A stretch of DNA of 64,000 bases from the NCBI GenBank assembly GCA_947647735.1, contig CANSLJ010000002.1, forward strand, positions 207,147 through 271,146, in the 5' to 3' direction. This DNA is from an uncultured bacterium (lineage in GTDB: Bacteria > Bacillota > Clostridia > Lachnospirales > Lachnospiraceae). Shown here in pieces: positions 1,551-58,082 of this stretch (position 1 is its first letter; every line of letters starts with the position of its first letter). The notes beneath the pieces were generated by a model, which was not told the DNA's origin, made no database searches, and was given only the letters and a program-made list of their open reading frames with translations. Made by a program: the position numbers and the translations under genes.

Positions 1551-1670
1551 CCTATTCCAGTTCCGCATATGCCCTACCAGTACACCAATAACCTAAGACA
1601 ATTTCCAGCCGTTTCACGTCTGTAGATCGTCTTGTGCACTGTACGGGCATATGCTGTTTTCCAGTTCCGC
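1551..1670 (-). repeat. Intergenic hairpin repeat R1 (family R, full length)
   Basis: Read on the - strand, the element begins with GCGGAACTGGAAAACAGC and ends with GCGGAACTGGAATAGGA, so the same 10-mer flanks both sides. Between them is one long hairpin. The outer arms are 1645-1654 and 1565-1574 (GCATATGCCC / GGGCATATGC, perfectly complementary). An inner stem pairs the CACAAGACGAT side with the AAATTGTCTT side. The right end merges into the AGGAG ribosome site of the downstream AAA-ATPase gene; the left end lies 5 nt after the nrdD stop codon. Confidence 0.85.
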
Positions 1671-1675
1671 AGGCA

Positions 1676-3835
1676 TCACATCGAAACCCGCTCCCCGATC
1701 TCCGCCATCTTCGCATCGCACAGCCTTGTATCCCCGTGCACTCTCGAATAGGCGAGATACCCGTTCATCCGGTCGATCTTCGTCAGATTCCTGCTGCCGC
1801 ATTTCGGACAGACATCCATCTCCAGCTCCTGATGCCCGCAGTCGTCACAGTAAGCCAGCGACAGGTTCACGCCCTCATAAAATCCCATCTCCATCGCCCG
1901 CCGCACCAGCGTGCGGATCGCCTCCAAATTATAATCGATCGGATACTTCACATACTGGATCTTGCCGCCGTTAAACAGCTCCCAGAACCGTTTCTCCAGA
2001 TCCTGTTTCTGGATCGGCGTGATTTGCTCCGTCACATGACAGTGGAAACTGTTGGACACATACTCCCTGTCGGAAACACCCTCAACGATACCGTATTTTG
2101 CCCGAAACTGCTCCACCTGCAGCCCGCAGAGATTTTCCGCCGGCGTGCCGTAGATCGCATAGAGGCGCTTATCTTCCTTCTTAAACTGCCCGATCCTGTC
2201 ATTAATATACCGCATCACTTCCAGCGCAAAGGCTCCGTCCTCCACCAGAGACTTTCCGTTGTAAAGCACCTGCAGTTCATTTAAAGCTGTAATGCCGAAA
2301 CTTGCCGTGGCAGAAGCCAGCACAGGCTTTATCTTGTCATGAAAATCCAGATGCCCGCCGTAAAAGCCGCCCTCACAGTAACCCAGCGGATTGTTGGAAG
2401 CCTTCATCTCTCCCAGATAGGCGTAAGTCCGCAGATGCAGCCGTCTGATCAGTTCCAGATAATAATCCAGCACCTCGTAAAAATCCCGGCTCTCCTGCCT
2501 TGCCTTCGCCAGGATCATCGGCAGATGGAGGGATACCACGCCGATATTAAACCGCCCCACAAACACCGGCTTATCCGCCTCGTCCGCCGGCTCCATGCCG
2601 CCTCTCTCATACCAGGGTGACAAAAAGGCACGGCACCCCATGGGCGAGATCACCCTGCCGTATTTTTTATACATCTCCGCAATATAGCCTTCCCCGGTCA
2701 GCGAAAGCCAGTCGGGATACATGGTCCTGGCAGAACAGGCAATCCCCGCCTCAAACAACTCCTCCAGCTCGCACCCCGGCCCATGCAGATCTTTGTCATA
2801 CAGAAAAACGATCTTCGGAAACAGCACCGGTTTTTTATGTCCCTTTTTGCCCTGTCCGCCCTTCCGCACTTCCAGCAGCGTCCTTGTGGCAAGACGGGCA
2901 AACCGGTCTTTCCCGAGCCCCGCCGTCACCGTGATAAACGGATAGTCCCCGCGGCTTGACGCCACGGTATTAAATTTATATTCCCAGCCCTGAAAGCCCT
3001 GCTCCATCTCCTTACAGAGATCCTTCCACGCCTGATCCTTCGCCTTCTCCTCCGTCAGCCCGAGGGAGAGATATTTTTTCAGATTTCTGTCATAGGACTT
3101 TTCCGCATAGGGCACCAGAAGCTTATCCACCTCCGGCACCGTAAAACCGCCGTACTGCTGGCTCGCCGCCGACAGCACGATATCCCCCATCACATCAAAA
3201 GCGGTGTCCAGCGTCTTCGGCTCATTGTACCAGACATTTCCCATCTCGAAGCCGCCCTGCAGTACCTCCCCGATATTGAACAGGCAGCAGTTCATCGTAT
3301 CACGCCTCGCGGACATATCATGAATATAGATATAACCGTCATGTGCCGCCTGGATCTCTTCCCTCGTGAGGAAAAACTTCTGATACATTTCCCGGTTCAA
3401 CTGATTGAAGATCAGGCTCCGCCTTGTGGAGACAAGAGCGGAATCCGTGTTGGCATTCTCCTTATCCCCGATGTACATGATGGACTGGCTCTTTTTGTAG
3501 ACCTCATCCAGCATCTTTACAAAATCCTGCTTGTAATTCCGGTAATCCCGGTAGCTTTTTGCCACCAGAGGATTGATCTCCTCCAGCGCATACTCCACCA
3601 CATGATGCATCACCTCGATGGGAATATTTGCCATCTGCTCTTCTTCCACTCTGCCGATCACAAGCTCGCAGATCTTTCCCTTCTCCTCCCCAGTCAGTTC
3701 CACCATCACACGATATGCGCTCTTTCCCACCGCGTTGACGACTTTCTGCACCTGAAAGGGTTCCTTGCTGCCGTCTTTTTTTATGATATATACCTGATAT
3801 TTCGGTTGATATAATTCGTTGTAGTTGATTTCCAT
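1676..3835 (-). CDS. nrdD: Anaerobic (class III) ribonucleoside-triphosphate reductase
   Basis: This 719-residue glycyl-radical enzyme reduces ribonucleoside triphosphates to deoxyribonucleotides without oxygen. An ATP-cone allosteric domain occupies about residues 5-100. The active-site region contains DTMNCCLFNIGEV. A zinc site of two CxxC pairs (CDDC and CPKC) sits near residues 663-680, followed by the glycyl-radical motif RMNGYL with the radical glycine near 692. The ATG at 3835 is chosen because GAGGAAA lies just upstream; a frame extension to 3877 has no comparable site. The activase NrdG is not nearby in this window. No NrdR box was recognised in the upstream 130 bp. Confidence 0.95.
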   Translation of the reverse strand: MEINYNELYQPKYQVYIIKKDGSKEPFQVQKVVNAVGKSAYRVMVELTGEEKGKICELVIGRVEEEQMANIPIEVMHHVVEYALEEINPLVAKSYRDYRNYKQDFVKMLDEVYKKSQSIMYIGDKENANTDSALVSTRRSLIFNQLNREMYQKFFLTREEIQAAHDGYIYIHDMSARRDTMNCCLFNIGEVLQGGFEMGNVWYNEPKTLDTAFDVMGDIVLSAASQQYGGFTVPEVDKLLVPYAEKSYDRNLKKYLSLGLTEEKAKDQAWKDLCKEMEQGFQGWEYKFNTVASSRGDYPFITVTAGLGKDRFARLATRTLLEVRKGGQGKKGHKKPVLFPKIVFLYDKDLHGPGCELEELFEAGIACSARTMYPDWLSLTGEGYIAEMYKKYGRVISPMGCRAFLSPWYERGGMEPADEADKPVFVGRFNIGVVSLHLPMILAKARQESRDFYEVLDYYLELIRRLHLRTYAYLGEMKASNNPLGYCEGGFYGGHLDFHDKIKPVLASATASFGITALNELQVLYNGKSLVEDGAFALEVMRYINDRIGQFKKEDKRLYAIYGTPAENLCGLQVEQFRAKYGIVEGVSDREYVSNSFHCHVTEQITPIQKQDLEKRFWELFNGGKIQYVKYPIDYNLEAIRTLVRRAMEMGFYEGVNLSLAYCDDCGHQELEMDVCPKCGSRNLTKIDRMNGYLAYSRVHGDTRLCDAKMAEIGERVSM

Positions 3836-3967
3836 ATATTTTTCCTCACGGCATCTTTCTGTACATTCCGTCAACATCTTCCTTTACTGCACCCTATTCT
3901 GCCACATCTGTGTTATCATGAACTCCCGCTGTTCATGTTTCAAGCCCCGTTCGGTTTCTCTGCCCCA

Positions 3968-4960
3968 TCAGCCATCCATTTCCTCCACGATCTCCCGCAG
4001 ATAGTCCCGATACCCGTCCCGCACGGATTCCGGCGCCGTCACTTTTACTTCCTTCCCGATCCCGGCAAGCCAGCCGTAAAACTGCCTGCTGACCATCACC
4101 TTCACATGCACCGCAAACCGCCCCTCCGGGAGTTTTTGCAGTGAAACATCTTTCCCGAACCGGTCCAGCACGACACCCACCAGAAAATCCGGAAAGCTCA
4201 GTGTCACGATCGTCTCATCCCCGCCGTACATCCCGAAGGTCTTCGCCGAGTACGCCGACAGATCACACTTTTCAAAAACAGCCTCCCCCTCCCGACGCTC
4301 CTTAAGCATCTCGATCGGTCCGATCTTATCCACCCGGAAATGCTTCAGCATCCCCGCCTCCGCGTCATAACCGATCAGATAATAATTCTCATCATTCCAC
4401 ATCAGCGACCAGGGACTGATCCTGTAAGGCTTCCCGCCTTTCCTCGGCACCAGCTTTTTCTGGAGATTCCACTCCAGATACAAGAAGGATATCTGCCTGT
4501 TTTCATGGATCGCCGTATGTATCGCATCCACATGATAGTAAATGCTCTCATTCTCATTCTTGATCTGCCCCGACGTATAGACCTGACGCCGGAGCTGCAC
4601 CGCCTCATGCCTGCTGGCGAGCTTCCCGATCTTCCGGATGAGCTGCTCCGACTTGGATCTTGTGATAAAACGGGAAGCGGAAACCGCATCCGCAAGAAGC
4701 TTTAACTCCGGCAGTTCAAAATCTCTGGACGCCAGATAATACCCGCCGCTGCTTCTGGATGGATCAAAACCGATATCCACACCGAAATCCGCCAGACAAT
4801 CCATATCATGATAGACGCTCTTCCGCTCCGCGCTGATCTCCTCCGCCTTCAGCTTTTCCAGCAAAACCGCCATAGGCATGGGATGCTGTTCGTCTGTCTG
4901 TTCTGTCAGGATCTTCAGGAGATATAATAACTTTAGTTTTTGTTTCTCTGATTTTGGCAT
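3968..4960 (-). CDS. WYL-domain transcriptional regulator
   Basis: A 330-residue protein: N-terminal winged helix-turn-helix (about 1-70, with the ERKSVYHDMDCL region typical of the DeoR-like part), then a WYL domain around residues 150-230 containing PYRISPWSLMWNDENYYLIG, and a C-terminal WCX-like extension. WYL regulators sense ligands (often nucleic-acid related) and are frequently found with phage-defence or stress genes; that link is family knowledge, not seen here. The start ATG at 4960 lies 1 bp past the stop of the 80-residue gene upstream, so it is translationally coupled to the DUF3791-DUF3990 cassette and is probably its regulator or effector partner. Confidence 0.9.
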   Translation of the reverse strand: MPKSEKQKLKLLYLLKILTEQTDEQHPMPMAVLLEKLKAEEISAERKSVYHDMDCLADFGVDIGFDPSRSSGGYYLASRDFELPELKLLADAVSASRFITRSKSEQLIRKIGKLASRHEAVQLRRQVYTSGQIKNENESIYYHVDAIHTAIHENRQISFLYLEWNLQKKLVPRKGGKPYRISPWSLMWNDENYYLIGYDAEAGMLKHFRVDKIGPIEMLKERREGEAVFEKCDLSAYSAKTFGMYGGDETIVTLSFPDFLVGVVLDRFGKDVSLQKLPEGRFAVHVKVMVSRQFYGWLAGIGKEVKVTAPESVRDGYRDYLREIVEEMDG

Positions 4961-4961
4961 G

Positions 4962-5204
4962 TTATCCTCTCATCCACGAAGCAACGTTTCCGCTTTCTTC
5001 ATCCTGTAACATACTCCATACATACTCAAAAGACTCCGCATAAAGCCCAGATTCCCTGTCTTGCAGTAATTCATATGTCATTGTTTTCAACAGTTTTATC
5101 AGCGCCTCCTCCTCTGAACACTGCCGTTCCCTGCTTATACGCTGTACTAAATAAAAGGACAGATTCTGTATTGATTTATTTATATTTACAGTTGTCGCCT
5201 TCAT
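4962..5204 (-). CDS. Small helical protein of the DUF3990 cassette
   Basis: An 80-residue protein of unknown function. It begins MKATTVNINKSIQ and is predicted mostly helical, with EEALIKLLKTMTYELLQD in the middle and a conserved-looking GLYAESFEYVWSML toward the C-terminus. It overlaps the DUF3990 gene upstream by 4 nt (ATGA at 5201-5204) and is followed after 1 bp by the WYL regulator start. The size, acidic and helical character and overlap with a putative toxin would suit an antitoxin or accessory subunit, but this is inference; no DNA-binding motif is obvious. Confidence 0.75.
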   Translation of the reverse strand: MKATTVNINKSIQNLSFYLVQRISRERQCSEEEALIKLLKTMTYELLQDRESGLYAESFEYVWSMLQDEESGNVASWMRG

Positions 5205-5770
5205 CCTACGATCTCCCTTTTTACTCTTTTAAAACGAAGCTTTTGAATCGCCGCATAAGTTCCGAAAAAATATTGTTTCGGCAGATTTTCCGGCTCCAGA
5301 TCCTTTATCAGTTCATCTAATACTTCATCCGCATAACCTGTTCTGATCAAATCTTCTCTATATGAATTTATGATCGTGACAGTGTTCTCATCTGCTGTCG
5401 GTCCTATTACAATATCATAATTGTGTATACTTCTATCAGAATCCCTGTTCTTCAGGATAAAGCGAACCCATTCCCGATCAGCCTCCTTAAAAACCTTTAT
5501 CCTCAAATCCTCCCGCTTCTCAAGACATCTGTCATCAAACTCCAGATTATATCTGTATGCCTGGTACACTCCTGTTTTATACTGTGGATTTCTTCCCTTT
5601 ATCTTTGCTTCCTTTATCTCAATTATACGTTTATTTCTTCTGGCTATATTTTCTGCATGACTTTTTACGGAAGTCGCATAAAATCCCTTTCCAAAATCTT
5701 TATACCCTTTTCCCTGCTCCACATCAATCTCTGTAATATCATATATTGTTCCATGATATAAGTCTTTCAT
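5201..5770 (-). CDS. DUF3990 protein, ADP-ribosyltransferase-like
   Basis: A 189-residue protein matching DUF3990 by motif pattern. An N-terminal LYHGT (residues 4-8) resembles the first strand motif of H-Y-type ADP-ribosyltransferases. DFGKGFYATS (about 25-34) is the second motif, and HNYDIVIGPTADENTV (about 116-131) is the third region. DUF3990 is, to my knowledge, placed in the ADP-ribosyltransferase clan; target and activity are not known for this copy. It overlaps DUF3791 upstream and the 80-residue gene downstream by 4 nt each (ATGA junctions), giving a tightly coupled operon. The base composition is more AT-rich than the neighbouring housekeeping genes, compatible with horizontal gain. 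Confidence 0.85.
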   Translation of the reverse strand: MKDLYHGTIYDITEIDVEQGKGYKDFGKGFYATSVKSHAENIARRNKRIIEIKEAKIKGRNPQYKTGVYQAYRYNLEFDDRCLEKREDLRIKVFKEADREWVRFILKNRDSDRSIHNYDIVIGPTADENTVTIINSYREDLIRTGYADEVLDELIKDLEPENLPKQYFFGTYAAIQKLRFKRVKREIVG

Positions 5771-5991
5771 CTTCCGATATTCTCCTCTATCGCATCCATG
5801 TACGATCTCAAGTCCTGCAATATCCCCTTTATTCCCATGGAATTATATTCCTCATAACAGATATCAATATAGGAAAGCAGGCCATACTTATCCAGAATGT
5901 CACTTACCTTGCAAAAATCAATATTCCATTCCCGCTTCATACAGTTGGCTATGGTTATCTGCATATTCAAAACATTATCCGTTCTGGTCAT
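5767..5991 (-). CDS. DUF3791 protein, first gene of the cassette
   Basis: A 74-residue protein if the ATG at 5991 is used (AAGGA seven bases upstream); a GTG at 6012 with GGGGGA upstream is an alternative giving 81 residues. The pattern fits DUF3791: an N-terminal helix (VLNMQITIANCMKREW), then CKVSDILDKYGLLSYIDICYE and a C-terminal helix. DUF3791 genes are repeatedly seen directly upstream of DUF3990 genes, and here they overlap by 4 nt. A role as immunity or antitoxin partner is inferred from this linkage alone. The AT-rich 57 bp upstream (6013-6069) must hold the promoter, but I cannot assign boxes with confidence. Confidence 0.75.
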   Translation of the reverse strand: MTRTDNVLNMQITIANCMKREWNIDFCKVSDILDKYGLLSYIDICYEEYNSMGIKGILQDLRSYMDAIEENIGR

Positions 5992-6069
5992 CCCCGCTTC
6001 CTTTTCTTTCACAAAATCCCCCTAAAACAATATACTATATACCTTGCAATATTTTATATCCATGTTTTA

Positions 6070-6789
6070 TTATTCTCCTGATGTGACGATCCCAAACAAC
6101 TCCCGCAGATTCCTGATCTCATACTCTACATGCACCGCCCGCTCATCCTCCTGATACGCCGGCAGCGCCTTCCCCTTCGGATTATACCAGCAGGCATCCA
6201 CCCCGGTATTATTTGCCCCGCGCATATCGGAAGTCAGAGAATCCCCCACAAGCAGAGCCCTCTCCTTCCTGAAATCAGAAAGCTCGCTGAACGCAATATC
6301 GAAAAACTCCTTCCGGGGCTTCTCATACCCTATCACATCCGATATAAAAACTTTATCGATCAGTTTGTCAAATCCGGAATTTTTCATCTTGATCTGCTGC
6401 GTGACAAGAATGCCGTTGGTCACAATATGCTGTTTTACGCCCAGCGCATTCAACTCTTTCACGATCTCATAGGAATCGTCCACATAGTAAGTCTTTGTCC
6501 CCAATTCCCGCTCATACTGACTCTGCATCTCCTCCGCGTCAATATGATCGATCCCCTGCTGTCTGAAAAACTCCCGGAATCTCCCCGGCAGCAGCTCCTT
6601 TTTCGTGGTCTCGCCCCGCTCCAGCCTCTCCCAGAACTTTTCATTGATCCCCGAATACAGAGCGAGCATTTCCTCCGTCATCGTAACGCCGTGGGCCTCC
6701 AGGCACACCCCCAGCGCATACCGTTCCGACATTTTAAAATCAAGTAATGTACCGTCCAGATCCCATAAGATCGTATCGTATTTTAACAT
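6070..6789 (-). CDS. yjjG: HAD-family pyrimidine nucleotide phosphatase, YjjG type
   Basis: A 239-residue haloacid-dehalogenase-fold hydrolase. Motif I is DLDGTLLDF (residues 10-18, nucleophile D10 and acid D12), motif II is the Thr of IVTNG, motif III the Lys of YEKPRKEFF, and motif IV GDSLTSD. The helical cap after motif I and overall length fit the YjjG subfamily, which dephosphorylates pyrimidine nucleoside 5'-monophosphates including non-canonical ones (house-cleaning). Substrate here is inferred from family only. GAGGGA lies eight bases before the ATG. Confidence 0.85.
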   Translation of the reverse strand: MLKYDTILWDLDGTLLDFKMSERYALGVCLEAHGVTMTEEMLALYSGINEKFWERLERGETTKKELLPGRFREFFRQQGIDHIDAEEMQSQYERELGTKTYYVDDSYEIVKELNALGVKQHIVTNGILVTQQIKMKNSGFDKLIDKVFISDVIGYEKPRKEFFDIAFSELSDFRKERALLVGDSLTSDMRGANNTGVDACWYNPKGKALPAYQEDERAVHVEYEIRNLRELFGIVTSGE

Positions 6790-6925
6790 AGATCATTTCC
6801 CTCTTATCCTTCGCCGCAAACCCGCGCCGCCGCGCTCTATGCCCGATTCCATCGGACGTTCGCCCGCCGCATAACCGGCAGAAAAGCAAAAAGATGCCCA
6901 TGTTTCCATGAACATCCTTTCCCGG

Positions 6926-7093
6926 TCATATGCCTTCTTCTTCCGCAGTCCCGCTCTCCGGCACTGCCTTTGCATCTTTGCTCTTTCTCCATTTGATCCC
7001 GATAAAGCATGCCGCAACTACCAGAACCGCCACGATCACAAAAACAATAGCATATGCCAGAAAATTGACTCCAAATGATGCTCCAGCACTCAT
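6926..7093 (-). CDS. 55-residue single-pass membrane protein
   Basis: A short frame, ATG at 7093 to TGA at 6926. After MSAGASFGVN comes one strongly hydrophobic segment (about residues 11-32, FLAYAIVFVIVAVLVVAACF), then a basic IKWRKSKD and an acidic tail ending EEEGI. GAAGGA sits seven bases before the start. The layout (short outside N-terminus, one helix, positive-inside tail) is that of a genuine small membrane protein rather than chance. Function unknown; it stands alone between yjjG and rnhA. Confidence 0.65.
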   Translation of the reverse strand: MSAGASFGVNFLAYAIVFVIVAVLVVAACFIGIKWRKSKDAKAVPESGTAEEEGI

Positions 7094-7153
7094 CGTTCAT
7101 TCCTTCTTTCTTTATATAGTACGCACTACTACGCTTACTCTCGAGTATACCAT

Positions 7154-7627
7154 CTACAGGCCTGCATCGTCAAGTAAGTCCTCGCCGTCCGCGGCGCTTG
7201 TGGCGAGCTGGTCACAACGCTCGTTCTCGGGATGCCCGTCATGCCCTTTCACCCAGACAAACTCCACCTCATGAGGCTCCATCGCCTTTAAAAGGCGCTT
7301 CCAGAGATCCACATTTTTTACCGCCCCTCCGTCAGCCTTTTTCCAGTTTTTTTTCAGCCAGCCACCGATCCAGTTCTTCTGGAAAGCATCCACCAGATAC
7401 TTGGAATCCGAGACCAACTTCACCCTACAGGGTTTGATGAGCGCCTCCAGCCCCGCTATCGCCGCCATCAGCTCCATGCGGTTGTTCGTCGTTTTTTTAT
7501 ACCCTGCACTATACTCTCTCTCATGCAGGGTCCCCCTGCCGTCCACATACTGCACCACAGCGCCGTATCCGCCGGGACCGTCCGGGTTTCCCCGCGCCGC
7601 ACCGTCTGTATAGATCGTCACATTCAT
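7154..7627 (-). CDS. rnhA: Ribonuclease HI
   Basis: A 157-residue RNase HI that cleaves RNA in RNA-DNA hybrids (primer and R-loop removal). The catalytic carboxylates are visible: D8 in YTDGAARGNP, the Glu of NNRMELMAA, the Asp of SDSKYLVDA, and the Asp of NERCDQLA near residue 138. The basic handle region WLKKNWKKADGG is present as in E. coli RNase HI, and length is typical. No N-terminal hybrid-binding domain. Confidence 0.95.
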   Translation of the reverse strand: MNVTIYTDGAARGNPDGPGGYGAVVQYVDGRGTLHEREYSAGYKKTTNNRMELMAAIAGLEALIKPCRVKLVSDSKYLVDAFQKNWIGGWLKKNWKKADGGAVKNVDLWKRLLKAMEPHEVEFVWVKGHDGHPENERCDQLATSAADGEDLLDDAGL

Positions 7628-7696
7628 ATTCTCGCCCTGCTTCCTGTCAATCTCTCCAAATCACTTCTACCTATAAACACATAAGCCCTGTATTTC

Positions 7697-9511: not shown

Positions 9512-9665
9512 ATACTTATTATACTATTCTGTCCTTTTCTATCATACTGCTCATATCCTGTATCTGCTTACAGCAGGACATCCTGCCATTCTATCGCATA
9601 TCACTATAACAGAATGTCCCGCTGTCATTTCAGAATACATCTCTGTCCAACAGCGTTCCCGCTTC

Positions 9666-11326: not shown

Positions 11327-11331
11327 TTTAT

Positions 11332-11898: not shown

Positions 11899-11910
11899 CT
11901 CTCGCTCCTC

Positions 11911-12027
11911 TATTCCAGTTCCGCATCTGTGCTCACAGCACACCCGTCCTAAGACAAATTTTCAGCCGCTCTGCGTCTGCAAATTGTCTTGTGCACTGTT
12001 CGCACAGACGCTGTTTTCCAGTTCCGC
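11911..12027 (-). repeat. Intergenic hairpin repeat R2 (family R, full length)
   Basis: Same plan as R1, read on the - strand between the iorA stop and the iorB start: GCGGAACTGGAAAACAGC on the left, GCGGAACTGGAATAGAGG on the right. The outer arms (12002-12011 and 11923-11932) read GCGTCTGTGC and GCACAGATGC, pairing with one G-U wobble; they differ in sequence from R1. The core has ACAAGACAATTT facing AAATTTGTCTT. The right end merges with the iorB ribosome site. Confidence 0.85.
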
Positions 12028-20251: not shown

Positions 20252-20260
20252 AAATCCCCC

Positions 20261-20307
20261 ATTCCAGTTCCGCATCCGCTCCCCCGATATCCAGAACAGA
20301 TGCTGTA
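20261..20307 (-). repeat. Short family-R repeat R3
   Basis: Only the two ends of the element are present: on the - strand ACAGCATCTG on the left and GCGGATGCGGAACTGGAATGGGGG on the right (given here as boundaries 20307 to 20256). GCATC and GATGC still pair. The right end again provides the ribosome site of the next gene (start 20251). It appears to be an internal-deletion derivative of the full repeat. Confidence 0.65.
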
Positions 20308-20709
20308 TCACTTCAATTCCAATGTCATTTGCTCCGCCTCCCCCGGCACGATCACTCCGATCTCCATAAAGATCGGATACAGATAACTCGCCCCGAAGGT
20401 TTTCAGCTTCTTCGGACCGCTCACCGGAAGATGAGCCTTCTGCAGTTCCATCGCATTCCAGAGCGACAGATTTACCGTGGACCGGGTAATGGACTTGTCC
20501 TTCCTGCTGACAAATATTTCATACCCTTTAATAGAATAGCTATAGTCCAGATGCTTTGCCGTCTCGAAGCTTTTCCCTTCCAGCATCACCAGCACATCCC
20601 ACAGCGCGTCCTCCAACAATGTCCGGGAATCGTTTTCTCCCCGGATCTCCTTTTCCACTAATTCCTTCAACTCGCGAAGCTTTTCTTCCTGTTTCGATTC
20701 AGAAGCCAT
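20308..20709 (-). CDS. Conserved hypothetical protein
   Basis: A 133-residue protein that I do not recognise. The first 30 residues are charged and helical (KQEEKLRELKELVEKEIRG), then a compact domain with SITRSTVNLSLWNAMELQ, GPKKLKTFGASYLYPIFMEIGVI and an acidic end. The STV..AL/GP.KL.. pattern has the feel of a small DNA-binding or enzyme-associated fold, but this is not enough to call. Its start overlaps the end of the VanZ-family gene by 43 nt, so the two are cotranscribed. AAAGG lies before the ATG. Confidence 0.7.
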   Translation of the reverse strand: MASESKQEEKLRELKELVEKEIRGENDSRTLLEDALWDVLVMLEGKSFETAKHLDYSYSIKGYEIFVSRKDKSITRSTVNLSLWNAMELQKAHLPVSGPKKLKTFGASYLYPIFMEIGVIVPGEAEQMTLELK

Positions 20710-22052: not shown

Positions 22053-22059
22053 CCCTCTC

Positions 22060-22109
22060 TCCTATTTCAGTGTTATGCACTTAAGGCAGAGACCGTTTCC
22101 GTCTCTGCC
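22060..22109 (-). repeat. Hairpin plus family-R right-end trace (R4)
   Basis: A perfect stem GGCAGAGAC / GTCTCTGCC (22085-22093 and 22101-22109) follows htpG without a T-run. Just downstream, CACTGAAATAGGAGA resembles the right end of family R and holds the ribosome site of the DegV gene. The assignment to family R is weak by itself. Confidence 0.4.
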
Positions 22110-22127
22110 CAAGTATGGAAATTATAT

Positions 22128-26867: not shown

Positions 26868-26874
26868 CTTAATC

Positions 26875-26905
26875 TCCTATTCCAGCTCCGTAGACAATTT
26901 TCTAT
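26875..26905 (-). repeat. Short family-R repeat R5
   Basis: On the - strand GAAAATTGTCT followed by CGGAGCTGGAATAGGAGA: the inner stem remnant and right end of family R. It lies between the beta-CASP nuclease stop and the thyA ribosome site, which it forms. Confidence 0.55.
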
Positions 26906-28500: not shown

Positions 28501-28510
28501 GCCTCTACCT

Positions 28511-28546
28511 CCTATTTCAGTTCGGTCTTATGCTGTTTTCCAGTTG
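28511..28546 (-). repeat. Short family-R repeat R6
   Basis: On the - strand AACTGGAAAACAGCATAAG joined directly to ACCGAACTGAAATAGGAGG. This keeps both ends of family R with the core removed, and its right end again provides the ribosome site (beta-CASP gene). The remaining 28547-28597 shows nothing recognisable. Confidence 0.6.
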
Positions 28547-49255: not shown

Positions 49256-49263
49256 TTGTCCCT

Positions 49264-49411
49264 CCTATTCCAGTTCCGCAGATTCCTCTTCCAGCACACA
49301 CTGCCGAAAACAATACGCAGCCGTCTTACGTCTGCATATTGTTTTGTGCGCTGTTCGGGTATCTGCTGATTCCAGTTCCGCATCTGCGCTCCCAGTGCCA
49401 ATAACCGCAGA
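49264..49411 (-). repeat. Family-R repeat R7, full copy plus truncated second copy
   Basis: A full copy covers 49264-49381. The outer arms GCAGATACC / GGAATCTGC pair with one mismatch; the core ACAAAACAATATG faces TATTGTTTT. On the - strand its right end is GCGGAACTGGAATAGGAGGG, which is the comEC ribosome site. A second, truncated copy overlaps its left boundary (49369-49411, matching the right-hand part of R9), so this site holds a tandem arrangement. Confidence 0.8.
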
Positions 49412-49420
49412 TCCGCAAAA

Positions 49421-50356: not shown

Positions 50357-50423
50357 AACTTCCTCATTTCCACGCACCTGCACTTATCTGCGCATATCTT
50401 CCGGCACCGATCACAACATCTTT

Positions 50424-51902: not shown

Positions 51903-51915
51903 CCGCCTGCTTTCC

Positions 51916-52605
51916 CTACCCTTTAAAATAATAGCCCGTTCCCCATTTGGTCTGGACATACTTGGGCTCGCTCGGACTGCTCTCGACCTTCTCGCGCAGA
52001 CGCCTCACATGAACGTCCACCGTCCGCACATCCCCCGGATAATCCACACCCCAGACGCTCTTCAGCAGATTCTCCCTGCTGTACACCTTGCCGGGATTCG
52101 ACATCAAAAGTTCAAGCACCTCAAATTCTTTCGATGTCAGGTTGATCTCCCTGTCAGAAATATATACCCGGCGGTCCTCCCGGTCCAGACGCATTTCCCC
52201 GCTCTCCAGCATCGTACTTTTATCTTCTTTATTCTCCTTCGGCGCGGTCCGGCGCATAATGGCCTTCAGCCTTGCCTTGACTTCCAGAATATTAAAAGGC
52301 TTTGTGATATAATCATCCGCACCGTATTCCAGCCCGAGGATCTTATCCATATCATCGCCCTTTGCGGTCAGCATCACCACCGGCACACTGGAAAACTCCC
52401 GGATCTGCTGGCAGACCTCAAATCCCGTCAGCTTCGGCAGCATCACATCCAGCAATATGATATCATATGTATTATTCTTCGCCTTTTCCAGCGCTTCCTC
52501 CCCGTCGTATGCACAATCCACTTCCATTCCGTCCTGTTCCAGACTGAACCGGATTCCCTTTACGATCAATTTCTCGTCGTCCACGACCAAAACCTTTTTC
52601 GCCAT
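51916..52605 (-). CDS. OmpR/PhoB-type response regulator
   Basis: A 229-residue regulator: receiver domain (1-120) with phospho-Asp in ILLDVMLPKLTGFE (about D53), conserved TKPF lysine, and a winged-helix DNA-binding domain (about 130-228, LTSKEFEVLELLMSNPGKVYSREN and RTVDVHVRRLREKVE). It partners with the kinase gene 13 bp downstream. Resembles WalR, but essential-regulator status is inferred only. Confidence 0.92.
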   Translation of the reverse strand: MAKKVLVVDDEKLIVKGIRFSLEQDGMEVDCAYDGEEALEKAKNNTYDIILLDVMLPKLTGFEVCQQIREFSSVPVVMLTAKGDDMDKILGLEYGADDYITKPFNILEVKARLKAIMRRTAPKENKEDKSTMLESGEMRLDREDRRVYISDREINLTSKEFEVLELLMSNPGKVYSRENLLKSVWGVDYPGDVRTVDVHVRRLREKVESSPSEPKYVQTKWGTGYYFKG

Positions 52606-52707
52606 ATACTACCTCGCACTCCTTTATGCCTGCCAGAACAGCCCGAAAACCGCTCAGGGCACAATACTCTCCCGGGCGGTATCTGCATCTGTCCCAGACA
52701 TTGCTGC

Positions 52708-53535
52708 CTACTCTATGCACAGATAACCTTCCATCCTTGCGTACATCTTCTCACCGATGCCGGAAACCTGCATGATATCTTCCTTTTTCTGAAAGCCCCC
52801 CTGCTTCTCCCGGTATTCAATGATCGCCTTGGCGCGCCCCTCACCAATACCCGGCAGAGCACAGAGCCCCGCTATATCCGCCGTATTGATATTCACAAGT
52901 CCTTCTGCGGAAACTCCCGGACTGTTGGTATTTCCGGCTTCCGCGCTCCCTGCGTCTGTCGCAGGTTCTTCTTTTACCGTATAATAATTATACTTTTCTT
53001 TATCATCCTCCGCGTCAGATCCATCCCTTTGATCTTCCGCCTTTTCTCTCTCCCGTATCTCTTCCAGCGCCGGTATTTCCAGCCTGCTGCCATCTGCAAG
53101 AGGCGCCGCCATATTCAGATAATCCCGGCAGGCATCCTCCGCAAAGCCGCCCGCCATATCGACAGCCTCATAAAAACGACTTCCTTCCGGCATCCCGTAA
53201 ACCCCCGGACTGGCTACCGCCCCGCAGACATGGACATAGATCGTCCCTGTTTCCCGGCTTGCGCCTGCATCTGCAATGTTTCCGCTCTCAGTCTCCTGCC
53301 CGGCTCTTTCACCTGCACCGACATCAACACTCTGCCCGGCTCCTTCGCCCTCTTCCGCTTCCCCGGCATTTCCCGGCGCATCAAGACCGACGCTCTCCTC
53401 CTGCCGCAGCTCCAAAAGCAGTTTATCCTCCGCTCCACAGCCTGCCAGAAGACATATTCCTGCCAGAAAGCCCATCATTAATAAGCCTGTCCGCAGGCCT
53501 TGTCCATATCGCACTGTTTTTTCATATAATTTCAT
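52708..53535 (-). CDS. comEA: ComEA-type DNA-binding lipoprotein
   Basis: A 275-residue protein: signal ending LAGICLLAGC (lipobox, Cys about 33), a low-complexity Glu/Gly/Ala-rich linker, a SLBB-like domain (GTIYVHVCGAVASPGVYGMPEGSRFYEAV), a second charged linker, and a C-terminal helix-hairpin-helix pair (VNINTADIAGLCALPGIGEGRAKAI, IMQVSGIGEKMYARM) that grips incoming DNA. It hands DNA to ComEC. AAAGGA precedes the ATG. Membrane attachment by lipid rather than a helix differs from B. subtilis ComEA. Confidence 0.9.
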   Translation of the reverse strand: MKLYEKTVRYGQGLRTGLLMMGFLAGICLLAGCGAEDKLLLELRQEESVGLDAPGNAGEAEEGEGAGQSVDVGAGERAGQETESGNIADAGASRETGTIYVHVCGAVASPGVYGMPEGSRFYEAVDMAGGFAEDACRDYLNMAAPLADGSRLEIPALEEIREREKAEDQRDGSDAEDDKEKYNYYTVKEEPATDAGSAEAGNTNSPGVSAEGLVNINTADIAGLCALPGIGEGRAKAIIEYREKQGGFQKKEDIMQVSGIGEKMYARMEGYLCIE

Positions 53536-53662
53536 TTTCTATTCCTTTCCGCATCTGCTGCCGCACATCTTCCGTGCGGTCATCCTGTTCCTTTGCGAAC
53601 ATCCGAATCGCTGTGCGAAAAAGAAGCCCCTCCGCCGCAGCCAAAACTGCAGCATAAATCAA
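53522..53662 (-). CDS. Possible small ORF upstream of comEA
   Basis: A 46-codon frame from TTG at 53662: a hydrophobic N-terminus (IYAAVLAAAEGLLF) and a charged end (AKEQDDRTEDVRQQMRKGIEN), overlapping the comEA start by 14 nt. The composition looks coding, but no ribosome site is visible, so it may be a remnant. Confidence 0.25.
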   Translation of the reverse strand: MIYAAVLAAAEGLLFRTAIRMFAKEQDDRTEDVRQQMRKGIENEII

Positions 53663-53695
53663 TTGTATGCCAAAGCCCGCTTTTTTACAAGTGGT

Positions 53696-54124
53696 TTATT
53701 CCCATTTAAAAATAATAATTCCGACAATGGCAAGCGCCATTCCTATCATCTTTTTCCATTCAAACGCCTGCTTTTCAGCACCGAAGATCCCGAACAGCTC
53801 GATCAGATACGCCACCAAAATCTGCGCTACCACGATAAACAATACCGCCTTCGCTGGTCCCAGACTTTTCATACTCTGGATAACAGTCCATGTGATCGCC
53901 GCACCCATCACACCGCCAAGCAGCATATATTTTGGTTCCACCTTCGCCAATTCCATGAAAGAGTGCCTCTCCACCGCTGCCCAGGCGCCAAGGCAGACTA
54001 AAAGCGCCGTAAACTGCACAAAGGCATTTGCTGTCCAAACACCTGTCTGATCCGTCACTTTCGTATTAAAAACGCCCTGAATACTCATCAGGGCGCCGGA
54101 AACAATCGCAATGATCATACCCAT
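53696..54124 (-). CDS. DMT-superfamily transporter (YdcZ/DUF606 type)
   Basis: A 142-residue protein with five hydrophobic helices: MGMIIAIVSGALMSIQGVFNTKV, AFVQFTALLVCLGAWAAV, YMLLGGVMGAAITWTVIQS, AVLFIVVAQILVAYLIELFG and MIGMALAIVGIIIF. YdcZ proteins are half-size drug/metabolite-type transporters, usually in pairs or dimers. Substrate unknown. GGAGG precedes the ATG. Confidence 0.85.
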   Translation of the reverse strand: MGMIIAIVSGALMSIQGVFNTKVTDQTGVWTANAFVQFTALLVCLGAWAAVERHSFMELAKVEPKYMLLGGVMGAAITWTVIQSMKSLGPAKAVLFIVVAQILVAYLIELFGIFGAEKQAFEWKKMIGMALAIVGIIIFKWE

Positions 54125-54240
54125 ACTGAAATCCTCCCTGCTGTTTTATGGTTATTTTCAGTATGGACTGTTTTTATGATTCTATACGATTCCGTCAATG
54201 ATCGTGAGTTTAAAATCTCCGATCAGTTATAAATTCAAGG

Positions 54241-55743
54241 TTACTCTTCTTCCGTATACTCCTCCTCGATCACTTCCTCCACCGGCAGTTCAATATACTC
54301 CTCCGTATATTCCTCACCTGTCACCTGGCTCATCACCTGCTCGGCAAGGCTCTTGAGCAGGGCATTGACGTCTCCGCCTTCCCAGATCTCCGTGAAAGCG
54401 ATCTCCATCTGCACCCAGAAATTCCCGGTGGTCATCATCTTCGGGATCGGCATGGACTCATTGTAGGACGCGGCAAAAGTATGATTTTCATCATAGTTCG
54501 GGAAACCGTAAACCGGCATCTTTCCGGTACTTTCCTGCAGGTTCAGCCCGTTTGTCCAGTCATTGACCAAAAACCATGCCAGCTCGTTCGCCTCCTCCTT
54601 GAACTCCGTATAACCATTCACCGCAATACCGGTTGTGATGGACAAAGAACGGCTTTTCAGATCCTCCGTCATGTCCGGCATACTGTAAAACCCGTACTCA
54701 TAAGGGAAACTCCCATCCGCCTGCGCTCTCGCCATACGGTTCACCGCCTCCGTGCCCGCCACGGTAAACACGATCTTCCCGTCCAGAAAATCCTGCATAA
54801 CGCTGTCATAACTTACCTCTCTTGTCTCAATAGAGAAAAACTGGTTCAGCTCCTGAAACGTTGTCAGACACTGCAGCGTTTCCAGATTATAGATATCGAT
54901 CTGATCCGGGTCATCCCCGTTTTCGCCTCCCACGATCAGATGGTCACCGGAAAAACTGTAATTATACAAAATATCCGAGACATCCCACTTAAAGACGGCC
55001 TCCACCTGTTCAGGCGCATTGTAGGAATCCGCAAAAATCTCCAGCTCCTCTATCGTATCCGGCAGGCACTCCCAGGCGCGACGGGCAATCTCCTCCTCCG
55101 AAAACGCATGAGATGCCTCTTCGCCGGAAGCCTCTTCCTCCACGTTTCCCTCATCCGCCTCAGCCTGCGCCGCTTCTCCCGCCACCTGATCAGCCTCAGC
55201 CTCGAGCTGCAGCCTCGCATAATCCTCCAGATAGGTCTTATTATACAACAGCGCACAGGCTTCATAATAAAACGGATAGGCGGCAACCTTCCTGTCATAA
55301 GTCACCGCGGCTTCAGCGCCCCTGTTTTCATACTCATCGATCCGGAACATGTCCCGATGCGTGATCTCCGTAGCAAGCCCCGCCAGATAAGCCTTCTCCA
55401 GACAGTCATTGGTGATCAGGTACAGATCCGGTCCCGGCCTGTCGCTCCGCCCTAAAGACGCCTCATTGATGGCTTCCACATACTCGCTGTCATCCACCAG
55501 CACTGTCTCCACCCGGATATCATTCTGCTCACTGTAGGTAACCGCCGCCGCATTCAGGTAATCCGTCAGGCTCTCATCCGTATACCAGAGTCGAAGGGTA
55601 TCCTTCTTTCTTCTCAAAAAGCTCTCCTGCTGTGCCTGTTCCTGCTGCGCCTTCATCTGCATACCGCTCTTTCCGATCACAAACACACCTGCCACAAGGC
55701 AGATCATCAAAAGCGCCGCATAAACTCTTTTTTTATAACTCAT
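54241..55743 (-). CDS. Extracellular solute-binding protein (family 1-like)
   Basis: A 500-residue exported protein: N-terminal helix MSYKKRVYAALLMICLVAGVFVIG (no lipobox Cys, so a signal anchor or cleaved signal), then a periplasmic-binding fold with LRLWYTDESLTDYLNAAAVTY, YEACALLYNKTYLEDY, FTVAGTEAVNRMARAQ and NELAWFLVNDWTNGL. An acidic low-complexity insert (about 190-225) and a Glu-rich C-terminus (EEVIEEEYTEEE) are present. No permease genes adjoin, so it is an orphan. The true start is ATG 55743 (AGAGAGG upstream); upstream frame lies inside repeat R8 and is not coding. Confidence 0.8.
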   Translation of the reverse strand: MSYKKRVYAALLMICLVAGVFVIGKSGMQMKAQQEQAQQESFLRRKKDTLRLWYTDESLTDYLNAAAVTYSEQNDIRVETVLVDDSEYVEAINEASLGRSDRPGPDLYLITNDCLEKAYLAGLATEITHRDMFRIDEYENRGAEAAVTYDRKVAAYPFYYEACALLYNKTYLEDYARLQLEAEADQVAGEAAQAEADEGNVEEEASGEEASHAFSEEEIARRAWECLPDTIEELEIFADSYNAPEQVEAVFKWDVSDILYNYSFSGDHLIVGGENGDDPDQIDIYNLETLQCLTTFQELNQFFSIETREVSYDSVMQDFLDGKIVFTVAGTEAVNRMARAQADGSFPYEYGFYSMPDMTEDLKSRSLSITTGIAVNGYTEFKEEANELAWFLVNDWTNGLNLQESTGKMPVYGFPNYDENHTFAASYNESMPIPKMMTTGNFWVQMEIAFTEIWEGGDVNALLKSLAEQVMSQVTGEEYTEEYIELPVEEVIEEEYTEEE

Positions 55744-55754
55744 AAAATCCTCTC

Positions 55755-55876
55755 TTATTCCAGTTCTGATTCCAGTTCCGCATAAGTCCTCCCAGTACAC
55801 ATAACCCGAAGACAAATTTCCAGCCGCTCTGCGTCTGTAAATTGTCTTGTGCACTGTCCGGACTTATGCTGTTTTT
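55755..55876 (-). repeat. Family-R repeat R8, overlapping the argD 3' end
   Basis: The outer arms GCATAAGTCC (55860-55869 read on -) and GGACTTATGC (55780-55789) pair perfectly and differ from R1, R2 and R9. The core ACAAGACAATTT faces AAATTTGTCTT. The left end is inside argD: the element's AAAACAGCATAA encodes the last residues Lys-Thr-Ala-stop. The right end is doubled (AACTGGAATCAGAACTGGAATAAGAG) before the solute-binding-protein ribosome site. Confidence 0.83.
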
Positions 55877-57054
55877 AGGGCTTCCTGCAGGATCGAAACC
55901 ATCTCATCCACATGTGCCTTCGTGATCACAAGAGGCGGCACAAACCGTAGAATGTTGCTGCCCGCATTGATCAGCACAAGCCCCTTCTCCAGACATTTGC
56001 TGATGATGCTGCCAACCGGCACACTGCACTCCAGTCCCTGCATCAGCCCCAGGCCGCGCCGTGCCAGAACGACATCCGACTCCGCGGCAAGCGCATCCAG
56101 CTTCTCCTCCAGATAAGATGCGATCTCCTGCACATGCCCTATTATATCATTTTCCTCGAATAAGTCCAACATTTTTGAAACCGCCTGGCAGGCAAACGGA
56201 TTTCCGCCGTAGGTGCTGCCGTGGTCTCCCGCTGTGAGGGACTTCTCCGCCACACGCTCCGTCATCAGGAACGCCCCCACCGGCACGCCGCCGCCGATCG
56301 CCTTGGCACACGCCATGATATCCGGCTTCACACCATAATGCTGCCATGCAAACATCTTTCCGGTACGTCCCATACCGCACTGGATCTCATCCAGTATGAG
56401 CAGGATATCCCTTTCCTCGCAGAGTGCCTTTATCTGCTCCAGAAATTTCTTTTTCGCCGGATAGATACCGCCTTCACCCTGCAGCGTCTCCAGCAGGATC
56501 GCACAGGTCTTTTCCGTCACCTGCTTCTTCACGGAATCAAAGTCATTCATATCGGCAAACCGGATATTGCCGATCAGAGGCTCAAAAGCCTCCCGGTAAT
56601 GAGGATTCCCCGTCACGGAAAGAGCTCCCATCGTACGCCCGTGAAAAGAATGGTTCATGGCAATGATCTCATGATCCGCATGCCCGTCCCTTGTATAGGC
56701 ATACTTCCTCGCCGCCTTCACTGCGCCCTCGATGGCCTCCGCGCCACTGTTTGTAAAAAACACCCGATCCATGCTGGATGCCTTTTTCAGCTTCCCCGCC
56801 GCCTGTATCGCCGGTTCATTATAAAAATAATTGGAAATATGAAGCAGCTTATCGATCTGCTCCTTCAGCGCCTCGTCAAAATCCTGATAATGGTACCCCA
56901 AGGCATTTACCGCGATCCCGGAAAAGAAATCAAGGTACTTCTTCCCCGCCTTATCATAAAGATACACGCCCTCGCCCCTGTCAAATACGATCCCGTAACG
57001 ATTATAAGTATGCAGCAGATCCTGCTCTGCCTGTGTGATATATTCCTGCATCAT
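55864..57054 (-). CDS. argD: Acetylornithine aminotransferase
   Basis: A 396-residue class III PLP aminotransferase: FFTNSGAEAIEGAVKAARKY, MNHSFHGRTMGALSVTGN, ILDEIQCGMGRTGKMFA, the PLP lysine in ACAKAIGGGVPVGAF, and HGSTYGGNPFACQA. It converts N-acetylglutamate semialdehyde to N-acetylornithine. ATG-ATG at 57054/57051; the first has GGGGAGG nine bases upstream. It starts 4 bp after argB. The last three codons are contributed by repeat R8. Confidence 0.93.
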   Translation of the reverse strand: MMQEYITQAEQDLLHTYNRYGIVFDRGEGVYLYDKAGKKYLDFFSGIAVNALGYHYQDFDEALKEQIDKLLHISNYFYNEPAIQAAGKLKKASSMDRVFFTNSGAEAIEGAVKAARKYAYTRDGHADHEIIAMNHSFHGRTMGALSVTGNPHYREAFEPLIGNIRFADMNDFDSVKKQVTEKTCAILLETLQGEGGIYPAKKKFLEQIKALCEERDILLILDEIQCGMGRTGKMFAWQHYGVKPDIMACAKAIGGGVPVGAFLMTERVAEKSLTAGDHGSTYGGNPFACQAVSKMLDLFEENDIIGHVQEIASYLEEKLDALAAESDVVLARRGLGLMQGLECSVPVGSIISKCLEKGLVLINAGSNILRFVPPLVITKAHVDEMVSILQEALKTA

Positions 57055-57058
57055 AGCA

Positions 57059-57952
57059 TCATTCCTCCCCTTCCCGCACAATAGCCGTTCCGATACCCTG
57101 ATTCGTAAAGATCTCCAGCAGCAGGCAGTGTGGAATCCGTCCGTCCAGAATATGCACCCTGTTCACCCCGTTCTGGATCGCTGATGTGCAGTTGCTCAGC
57201 TTCGGCAACATCCCGCCGCCGATAAAACCGCCGCCGATCAGTTCCTCCGCCTGTCCTGCGGTCAGCCTGCTGATGAAGCTGGACTTGTCATTCACATCTT
57301 TATACAGCCCTTCTATGTCCGTCAAAAATACCAGCTTATCCGCTCCCACTGCCTTTGCGATCGCACAGGCGGCATCATCCGCATTGATATTATAAGTCTG
57401 GAAATCCTCATCCAGCCCCACCGGCGCCACGATCGGCAGAAAATCCTTCTCCAGAAGATCATAGAGCACCTTCGGGTTTACCTCTCTGATATTTCCCACA
57501 AAACCGATATCCTGTCCGTCCGCATACTTTTTATCCACAGTCAGAAGTCCGCCGTCCTTACCGCTGACGCCCACGGCGCGGACACCCAGTTCCTGCACCA
57601 TGGTCACAAGGCTCTTGTTCACCTTGTTAAGCACCATCTCCGCGATCTCCATCGTCTCCGCATCTGTGACACGAAGCCCGTTCACAAACTGGGACTCCTT
57701 CCCGACCTTGCCGACCCACCTGCTGATCTCCTTGCCGCCGCCGTGAACGATGATCGGCTTAAATCCCACCAGTTTCAACAGCGTCACATCCTTGATGACA
57801 TTTTTCTGTAACTCCTCGTCGCTCATGGCGGAACCGCCGTATTTCACCACAATGATCTTTCTGTTAAATTTCTGAATATAAGGCAGCGCCTCGATCAGCA
57901 CCTCCGCCTTTTTTAAAACTTCCTCCATATTTTCCGGTCTGTTATTCTGCAT
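57059..57952 (-). CDS. argB: Acetylglutamate kinase
   Basis: A 297-residue kinase of the arginine pathway: [16 protein letters not shown] (phosphate loop), [12 protein letters not shown] (substrate loop), [30 protein letters not shown] and [11 protein letters not shown]. Length and the N-terminal helix ([20 protein letters not shown]) fit the arginine-inhibited hexameric class. The ATG at 57952 has GGAGG nine bases upstream, contributed by repeat R9. argD follows by 4 bp. Confidence 0.95.
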
Positions 57953-57964
57953 TTTATCTTTCCT

Positions 57965-58082
57965 CCATTCCAGTTCCGCATCTGCGCTCTCAGTACCAAT
58001 AACCGCAGAAAGATTTCCAGCCGCCTGTGCGTCTGTAAATCTTCTGGGCACTGCCCGCGCAGATGCTGTTTACCAGTTCCGC
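57965..58082 (-). repeat. Family-R repeat R9 (full length)
   Basis: On the - strand GCGGAACTGGTAAACAGC at the left and GCGGAACTGGAATGGAGG at the right. The outer arms GCATCTGCGC (58057-58066) and GCGCAGATGC (57978-57987) are perfect complements. The core reads CAGAAGATTTACAGACGC against GCGGCTGGAAATCTTTCTG. Compared with R1 and R8, both sides of the inner stem have changed together. It lies between the GNAT gene stop (58084) and argB start, inside the arg operon. Confidence 0.85.

Follow-up and report, generated by a model that had tools for sequence, protein, structure and literature searches.

Small interspersed repeats of bacteria are usually regarded as tolerated at places of low harm, such as 3' ends. 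ERIC, Correia (CE), and BIME/REP are not known to be limited to one orientation 5' of Shine-Dalgarno sequences (SDs), and the mobility of REP is attributed to Y1 (RAYT) transposases. Such repeats can affect mRNA cleavage or transcription (PMC3049150). BOX, RUP, and SPRITE of Streptococcus pneumoniae are small interspersed repeats that fold extensively and are probably non-autonomous; about half of their insertions vary between strains, and their neighbours show no clear functional class (PMC3049150). In marine Beggiatoaceae, TAACTGA direct repeats of 7 nt lie mostly in one orientation, a few nt from start codons (PMC4679880). Family R of Lachnospiraceae contrasts with the usual picture of small repeats, occupying many sites in one orientation and with one spacing, all at ribosome-binding regions.

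The five near-full copies of the original prediction are real in the window (the whole 64-kb stretch of DNA analysed), judging from model matches of 99.6–121.9 bits, sequence reading, and folds far better than those of shuffles (z -5.2 to -6.0; Table 1). Three of the four short derivatives predicted with them, at 20256-20309, 26874-26891, and 28509-28543, are convincing, and the one at about 22060-22080 is a degraded tail only. Full or mini copies occupy the r6 junction in orthologues, and full copies the orthologous site of r7 in genomes G003 and G006. The right-end 18-mer (up to 3 mismatches) matched ten times in the window, always on the minus strand, where 0.09 matches are expected by chance; two of these lie within copy 4 and one (22002) corresponds to no reported copy. 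Left flanks often hold a copy of the right end, which we read as the remnant of a tandem unit; the left boundary of the element is blurred because these remnants are common, and the one at 1661..1670 is probably the trace of a lost upstream unit. Since 53 of the 56 called genes in the window are on the minus strand, the window by itself cannot show an orientation lock.

Table 1. Family R copies and derivatives in the window; the model coordinates of the five full copies take in part of the host SD.
Feature	Position	Strand	Model match (bits)	Fold z	Next ATG	Remarks
R copy 1	1549..1660	-	120.8	-5.98	1543	sequence read; 5' AAAACAG, three-part hairpin, tail GGAACTGGAAT, then host SD AGGAG
left remnant	1661..1670	-				GCGGAACTGG, direct repeat of right end
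R copy 2	11907..12017	-	108.3	-5.35	11898	orthologous junctions compared; next gene presumably indolepyruvate-oxidoreductase-beta-like (named from its sequence)
r6, short derivative	20256..20309	-	35.7			partial hairpin and tail GGAACTGGAATGGGGG, directly 5' of next ATG
r7, degraded tail	22059..22080	-				CACTGAAATAGGAG; doubtful by itself
r8, solo right end	26874..26891	-				ACGGAGCTGGAATAGGAG; 2 mismatches; orthologous junction compared
r9, deletion derivative	28509..28543	-				CTGGAAAACAGCATAAG joined to ACCGAACTGAAATAGGAG; right-end matching, sequence read
R copy 3	49262..49372	-	99.6	-5.51	49255	
5'-truncated upstream unit	49373..49408	-	21.8			GCGGTTATTGGCACTGGGAGCGCAGATGCGGAACTG; weak model match, tandem with copy 3
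R copy 4	55764..55875	-	121.9	-5.99	55743	tail micro-duplicated: GGAACTGGAATCAGAACTGGAATAAGAG
R copy 5	57962..58072	-	110.5	-5.24	57952	next gene amino-acid kinase (PF00696)

The lock was borne out by the genome as a whole. With a home-made gene finder that was trained on the window and misses very short genes, and with model matches below 24.5 bits excluded (24 of the 100 matches listed), the genome has 66 arrays, 36 on the minus and 30 on the plus strand of the contigs, and all 66 run in the direction of the next gene. The upstream gene is co-directional in 63 of 65 arrays. The hairpin base lies a median of 24 nt from the start codon in the 49 of 66 arrays measured (20–28 nt in 42 of the 49); SD letters are part of both the model and the 20-mer, which favours SD-adjacent copies. 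Among the 17 arrays missed by the spacing script, an SD and a start can be recognised by eye in 7, a further repeat intervenes in 2, and 8 (e.g., C4:176292 and C45:19802) are without a clear SD. The predicted position between co-directional genes, close to the next start, thus holds, and nothing in the genome-wide check for mixed orientations, start-distant copies, or convergent sites spoke against it.

About 120 more arrays were found in >30 relatives, four other genera included, and their orientation agrees wherever it can be evaluated. It matched in 81 of 81 evaluable arrays (of 85) in named relatives, in 18 of 19 in syntenic stretches, a set repeated by at least three of the named arrays, and in 19 of 19 evaluable arrays (of 20) in the four other genera; the one exception reflects a missed 45-codon gene that has the correct direction. 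The upstream gene was co-directional at 169 of 173 counted arrays, against a divergent baseline of 9.4%, and the distance from hairpin base to start in other genera was 22–27 nt in 14 of 18 cases. Weak model matches in G002 and G035 were dismissed as chance, as they overlap called genes and are without the form of the element. The distribution of family R is confined to one cluster of genera within the Lachnospiraceae.

An ordinary MITE, REP, or BOX-like repeat could insert anywhere and owe this pattern to purifying selection on a compact genome, and family R looks like a typical repeat of this kind in its size and hairpin, its tandem copies, its restriction to one lineage, and its variable presence (cf. 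PMC3049150). We nevertheless consider this explanation improbable. None of ~185 evaluable arrays (one settled by eye) faces an opposing downstream gene, though 34 of 376 junctions in the sampled DNA are convergent, the arrangement in which BOX, RUP, and SPRITE are enriched (PMC3049150), and reverse orientation was never seen among evaluable arrays. Furthermore, ~35–41% of the non-element AGGAGG/AGGAG motifs that lie outside called genes or serve as SDs are intergenic non-SDs according to a crude caller (28 vs 51 SDs and 93 vs 134 SDs), and no array was found at any of these.

Copies of family R differ in presence, number, and length at orthologous junctions whose proteins are 86–90% identical, indicating fast turnover of the element; gain and loss were seen between species, and no insertion was caught within one species. 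In these bacteria, the DNA between cistrons changes much more rapidly than the genes do. While this turnover upholds the part of the original prediction that proposed a mobile element, the other part, that the element travels with a ribosome site, is not supported in its original wording by the SDs of apgM, cmk, iorB, and a 4-hydroxybutyryl-CoA-dehydratase-like (4HBD) gene. At three of the eight junctions compared, and in one paralogous pair, it is the host gene that owns the SD region. At apgM and cmk, the orthologous sites without the element retain a similar SD and spacer (for apgM, AGGAGGTCTGTGGCTTCAATG in the empty site of G005, from which G008 differs by one base, vs AGGAGGTCTGTGGCTTCATG in the filled site of G006), as does the 4HBD paralogue, and in G003, beneath other inserts, the SD region of iorB is similar to that of the filled G000. 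The remaining compared junctions are ambiguous as to the ownership of the SD. Judging from these sequences, family R adjoins a ribosome-binding site (RBS) rather than carrying one. That the element takes an RBS of its own from place to place is extremely unlikely in view of these sites, although the eight own-genome arrays without a clear SD would fit it, and some of them may use the purine-rich tail. No target-site duplication and no clean empty/filled site pair were found among the compared junctions; local tandem duplication and internal deletion were observed, and the left arm is identical in 19 of 24 tandem pairs.

Family R is a structured element of ~100 nt, a three-part hairpin preceded by AACAG and followed by a tail of ~11 nt that adjoins the pre-existing SD. 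The hairpin shows strong covariation, with 25 of 30 pairs changed on both sides, which was matched by 0 of 500 shuffles; paired arms could also be obtained by template-switch repair of palindromes. The sense strand folds better than the antisense strand in 26 of 26 cases, and the 28 pairs predicted on both strands comprise 20 G-U against 8 A-C; after dinucleotide correction the advantage of the sense strand is modest (mean z -6.85 vs -5.75; 21 of 26). In 83 of 115 elements, a simple finder picked up a mismatch of two purines (A-G or G-A). The CGGAACU tail is conserved, other genera included, where the part after CGGAACT varies in sequence, mostly not in length. Within this genus, GGA recurs in the tail at 6-nt intervals; tails of other genera, such as CGGAACTAATATAGGAGG, lack the second GGA. 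Twenty weaker, mostly shorter matches keep the orientation, and most of them, by eye, the outer stem pairing and the tail. Family R is probably under constraint at the mRNA level.

The strand-biased structure, the conserved tail and mismatch, the fixed spacing of ~24 nt, and the mostly well-paired stems of the short forms would suit a cis-acting host RNA that works at each site and is kept as useful in processing the mRNA (e.g., through cleavage by RNase III or RNase Y), in stabilizing the 5' end of the downstream cistron, or in enhancing or coupling translation. This is possible but on the whole rather unlikely, since presence per gene is not conserved between species with such similar proteins, the downstream genes have no common function, and a host role leaves the arrival of the element at new sites unexplained. 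Of the downstream proteins, 20 were scanned (that of copy 4 and 19 from the 22 extracted); 18 belong to largely unrelated Pfam families and 2 to none. A regulon RNA, that is, a riboswitch or an operator with GGA motifs at the RBS that a single RNA-binding protein (e.g., CsrA) recognises, is very unlikely: while a structured RNA beside the SD and the regular GGA in this genus agree with it, the genes behind are unrelated and there is no per-gene conservation. A CsrA operator in particular was rejected, as the second GGA is not kept across genera.

Our searches revealed no mobilising enzyme or autonomous relative of family R. Among 228 strict right ends, 102 were without a near stem partner, a number that includes left remnants and imperfect or lost hairpins, and no far-upstream partner for them was found in the retrieved loci that were searched. 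An autonomous version with cargo likewise found no support in these loci: with a loose pattern, 242 of 389 tails were unpartnered and one weak far candidate emerged, and the strict pattern gave no far partner. In the 30 genomes searched, the Y1 transposase PF01797 was not found in G001, G005, and G021 (58, 20, and 62 element matches) and was found in many repeat-free genomes; RAYT-type mobilisation was discarded because the presence of the transposase does not correlate with family R. REP/REPIN sequences are defined by a palindrome of ~20–40 nt next to a GTAG-like tetranucleotide, which is not the form of the three-part hairpin described here. The variable outer stem was considered as a guide to the flanking target, an idea that was dropped because the apparent significance of a first test came from full-length matches to neighbouring tandem copies. 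Searches of phages, plasmids, and viral contigs gave no match to family R; such records from these hosts are expected to be few. Rfam gave no match at gathering level in the window and none up to E=5 for 1500-1720. Nothing describing family R was found in the open literature, with subscription journals and preprints outside this scope, and the main text of a survey of structured RNAs in 26 genomes does not mention Lachnospiraceae (PMC8632094).

On balance, we consider it somewhat probable that family R is a lineage-restricted mobile (SINE/MITE-like) non-coding element that colonises RBSs and stays folded in mRNA. It would enter or survive directly 5' of the SD region, with a single orientation and chiefly at tight junctions within operons. 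In the mRNA, we infer, the ~100 nt would stay folded with one foot ~7 nt past the stop of the upstream gene and the second ~24 nt ahead of the next start codon, about where the edge of a bound 30S subunit lies. Folding in this way would leave the SD free and keep the two cistrons close in space, so that insertion would be cheap. If this fold is selected for, both the compensatory changes and the good pairing of the stems in the short forms would be accounted for. The restriction to start-proximal sites suggests either a target choice linked to mRNA or the ribosome, or strong retention only there. A SINE-like element that moves via RNA, targets ribosome-bound or ribosome-bindable mRNA in sense at the 5' edge of the 30S subunit, and is then fixed into DNA would explain the transcribed sense junctions, the start-proximal sites, and the single spacing; we regard this as a speculation of low probability. 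The pattern implies either that the choice of target is tied to translation or that the hairpin is built so as to make an insertion between two cistrons almost harmless, and it raises the questions of what a folded insert of ~100 nt does to re-initiation, to transcript ends, and to the stoichiometry of operons, and which machinery finds the sites.

Among known systems, BOX resembles family R in its modular tandem units of varying number (PMC3049150). Family R differs from BOX, RUP, and SPRITE in that its copies lie exclusively upstream of start codons and in sense orientation, and section 6 of the paper that describes their enrichment between convergent genes reports no RBS-adjacent orientation lock for them (PMC3049150). 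The TAACTGA repeats share with family R the absence of a gene-function pattern and a proposed post-transcriptional role, but they form no hairpin, most genes behind them are without an obvious SD, ten sets are reversed inside ORFs, and some head toward stop codons (PMC4679880). ERIC, Correia, and BIME/REP are, like family R, hairpin repeats that can occur in transcribed regions (PMC3049150). Family R is unlike REP in that it is not tracked by Y1 (RAYT) presence, and it is set apart from ERIC, Correia, and BIME by their descriptions. Translational-coupling junctions also have a stop and the next start close together, with an RNA structure at the junction that influences coupling (PMC12548453); these are arrangements of host genes, whereas family R is a dispersed repeat.

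The five near-full copies of family R, a hairpin repeat of ~100 nt, are present in the window as originally described, and so are three of the four short derivatives; the fourth, near 22060, proved to be a degraded tail only. Because 53 of the 56 called genes of the window lie on its minus strand, an orientation lock is not demonstrable from the window alone, and copies from the whole genome were therefore aligned, modelled and searched for. A similarity search of the genome gave at least 44 matches, 30 of which were fetched and 26 aligned (four odd or overlapping copies were omitted); the consensus fold of this alignment was turned into a covariance model, with which the genome was searched. 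Among the 100 matches listed, we inspected the 76 scoring ≥24.5 bits: three of these are antisense shadows, which leaves 73 matches in 66 arrays. The downstream gene runs in the direction of the array in all 66, and the arrays are split 36 to 30 between the two contig strands, so that the predicted uniform orientation relative to the genes holds genome-wide. The upstream gene is co-directional at 63/65 arrays and divergent at 2/65. The 5' end of R lies a median of 7 nt from the upstream stop, and the base of the hairpin a median of 24 nt from the start codon (49 arrays measurable by script; 20-28 nt in 42). Reading the remaining 17 by eye revealed seven with a Shine-Dalgarno (SD) site and start that the patterns had missed, two with a further repeat before the start, and eight without a clear SD. 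The covariance model and the 20-mer query used below both include SD letters, and the SD-adjacent finding of arrays should be read with this caution.

The same arrangement was found in relatives. Thirty-three assemblies (counted by record prefix) were picked by the exact right end plus AGGAG, a selection biased toward the SD but not toward orientation; orientation agrees in 81/81 evaluable arrays of 85, and an ATG lies ≤45 nt away in 79/85. In syntenic stretches of four relatives, selected independently of R, agreement is 18/19, and the sole disagreeing array is, on reading, followed by a correctly directed 45-codon gene; these two sets overlap by at least three arrays counted twice (L160/L248, L128/L249, L148/L254). 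Four other genera gave 19/19 evaluable arrays of 20, with a spacing of 22-27 nt in 14/18. Baseline junctions in the sampled DNA are 310 co-directional, 34 convergent and 32 divergent. A divergent upstream gene accompanies 4 of 173 counted arrays, below the expected 9.4% (p 2e-4; p 0.05 for the own genome alone). Copies between convergent genes, which the original prediction had named as evidence against itself, were looked for across the arrays; none was found in convergent or 3' regions. Recognition of AGGAGG as DNA is therefore insufficient on its own for this pattern. Outside the elements, in the window and the relatives' stretches, AGGAGG occurs as the SD of called genes 51 times, at 28 intergenic non-SD sites and at 336 sites inside genes (AGGAG: 134, 93 and 1142), as counted with a crude gene caller prone to overlook short genes.

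Homologous junctions were compared among genus members, whose reciprocal-best proteins have a median identity of 86-90% (Table).

Table. Parts of the R RNA, state of homologous junctions, and neighbouring features (G000, own genome; other G-numbers, relatives; C, contigs; L, fetched stretches; filled/empty, with/without an R copy)
Feature	Location	Observation
R 5' start		AAAACAG
R outer stem		~10 bp; sequence varies between sites, pairing kept
R short internal loop		between outer and second stem
R second stem		CAGTGCAC paired with GTGTACTG
R third stem		8-9 nt bulge on 3' side
R apical hairpin		contains purine-purine mismatch
R 3' tail		CGGAACT + ~5 nt, then SD
iorB junction		G000 full copy; G006 divergent full copy; G001 short forms; G003 remnants + another hairpin; G005/G008 solo-like tail; G007 nothing recognisable; G002/G004 (more distant) nearly no intergenic room
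apgM junction		R in G000, G006; other hairpin in G003; no R copy in G001, G002, G004, G005, G007, G008
cmk junction		full copy in G000 only
4HBD junction	G000 C12:68504 (L278); C38:17702 (L285)	filled at C12 gene start; empty in C38 paralogue and readable relatives
W10500 junction		G000 empty; G003 one full copy; G006 two; a shortened copy with each
Further repeat	G000 C8:35628 (L012/L034); C10:71845 (L226)	core GAGCAAAAAGCGGAGCGTTTGCGAGT, between R element and start codon
Other, larger nested hairpin repeats	G003:C134 L240-L244; G003 apgM L273	e.g. CGCCGGGAGGAAAATC...GATTTTCCTCCCGGC
GA-rich tandem repeat	G006 L245-L249, orthologous to window 7628-7696	GGAGACCGGTGAGAGGAAAAAGAAGAATTGTCAGAGAAATTTTC; fills junction
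Terminator-like stem	window 22085-22125 and orthologues	GGCAGAGAC..GTCTCTGCC; 3' of upstream gene, 5/5 genomes
Gene downstream of R copy 1	window 1-1543	predicted AAA-ATPase-like protein (PF09820)

At apgM, cmk and 4HBD, homologues with and without an R copy have similar SDs and spacers; the 4HBD comparison is a paralogous one in that the relatives may, by their upstream gene, be orthologous to C38, and the loci of two relatives are incomplete. At iorB, the SD and spacer of G003 resemble those of filled G000. Judging from this likeness, the SD is host sequence at these four junctions, the others being ambiguous, and the idea that the element travels with its own ribosome site was not upheld there. 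The 4HBD genes, which we take to be 4-hydroxybutyryl-CoA-dehydratase-like, offer a natural within-genome control for expression. Tandem pairs are divisible into parts in 24/25 cases; the left arm is identical in 19/24, and arm likeness in the other five (0.40-0.70) is about random (random mean 0.61). Twenty weaker matches (36-112 nt) all keep the orientation; in most, inspection by eye also shows a tail and a still-paired outer stem. The fetched loci contain 228 strict right ends: for 126 a close stem partner lies no more than 135 nt away, and the 102 without one include left remnants and imperfect hairpins.

Other repeats occur at such places. The nested hairpins of G003 occupy the same junction type, 5' of the same host SD, and several repeat families may share R-type junctions as a hot spot. 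The GA-rich repeat was seen in one genome only among those compared, and the R copy beside the terminator-like stem is variably present among the five genomes.

The fold itself appears to be maintained. In alignment A2, 96.4% of cells are paired, both sides change in 25/30 pairs (12.9 in shuffles), and the covariation score is 0.497 (0.205 in shuffles); none of 500 shuffles equals any measure, and slid versions score far lower. Template-switch palindrome repair might also create pairing, but it is expected neither to prefer a strand nor to retain a mismatch. The apical mismatch is A-G or G-A in 83/115 elements (simple finder), and folding is better for the mRNA strand than for the complementary one in 26/26, less strongly after dinucleotide correction (21/26; mean z -6.85 vs -5.75). 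Among the 28 pairs predicted for sense and antisense strand alike, G-U occurs 20 times and A-C eight times; in the union of pairs the ratio is 53 to 9, with 33 of the 53 G-U coming from two pairs predicted on the sense strand only. A constraint at the mRNA level is therefore likely, though not proven.

Real copies were found in the own genome, in 6/8 other same-genus genomes with 20 to at least 62 matches each, and in G021 of another genus; weak model matches in G002 and G035 were interpreted as chance. Under strict filters, the family-level search matched 9/397 genomes (8/334 genera) at E 1e-6, and the order-level search only the own genome among 392. An exact 20-mer of R hit at least 113 stretches of genome_contigs, in records titled Lachnospiraceae, Clostridia, or uncultured or unplaced bacteria, including one assembly each labelled Acetatifactor, Lachnoclostridium and [Clostridium] symbiosum; many R-carrying records are presumably from mouse gut. 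No match was found in viral contigs, phages or plasmids, nor in Rfam. Pfam scanning of 20 downstream proteins (19 of 22 extracted, plus that after R copy 4) assigned families to 18 and none to two: among them PfkB, phosphoglycerate mutase, DeoC, Rnf-Nqr, aldo/keto reductase (twice), amino-acid kinase, aminotransferase, cytidine deaminase, class II tRNA synthetase, semialdehyde dehydrogenase and AIR synthase. No shared regulon was seen among these 20.

We favour the view that R is a structured mobile element whose arrival and retention are both limited to sites adjacent to a ribosome-binding site. A Y1 transposase does not stand out as its driver. Movement through RNA, with the ribosome as guide, is the boldest reading and a rather improbable one. 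Once folded, R may keep the SD free and would hold the upstream stop and next start close together. According to one review, translational coupling becomes weaker the greater the distance and is influenced by RNA structure; work cited there found that structure right after the upstream stop reduced coupling, which counts against a helpful role of R (PMC12548453). Placement could also reflect tolerance alone, but the BOX, RUP and SPRITE repeats of pneumococcus prefer convergent regions, where no R array was found, and tolerance alone therefore predicts a picture other than that of R (PMC3049150). Orientation-biased, start-proximal repeats do exist: the TAACTGA repeats of Beggiatoaceae resemble R in both respects, although they are 7-mers, unlike R (PMC4679880).
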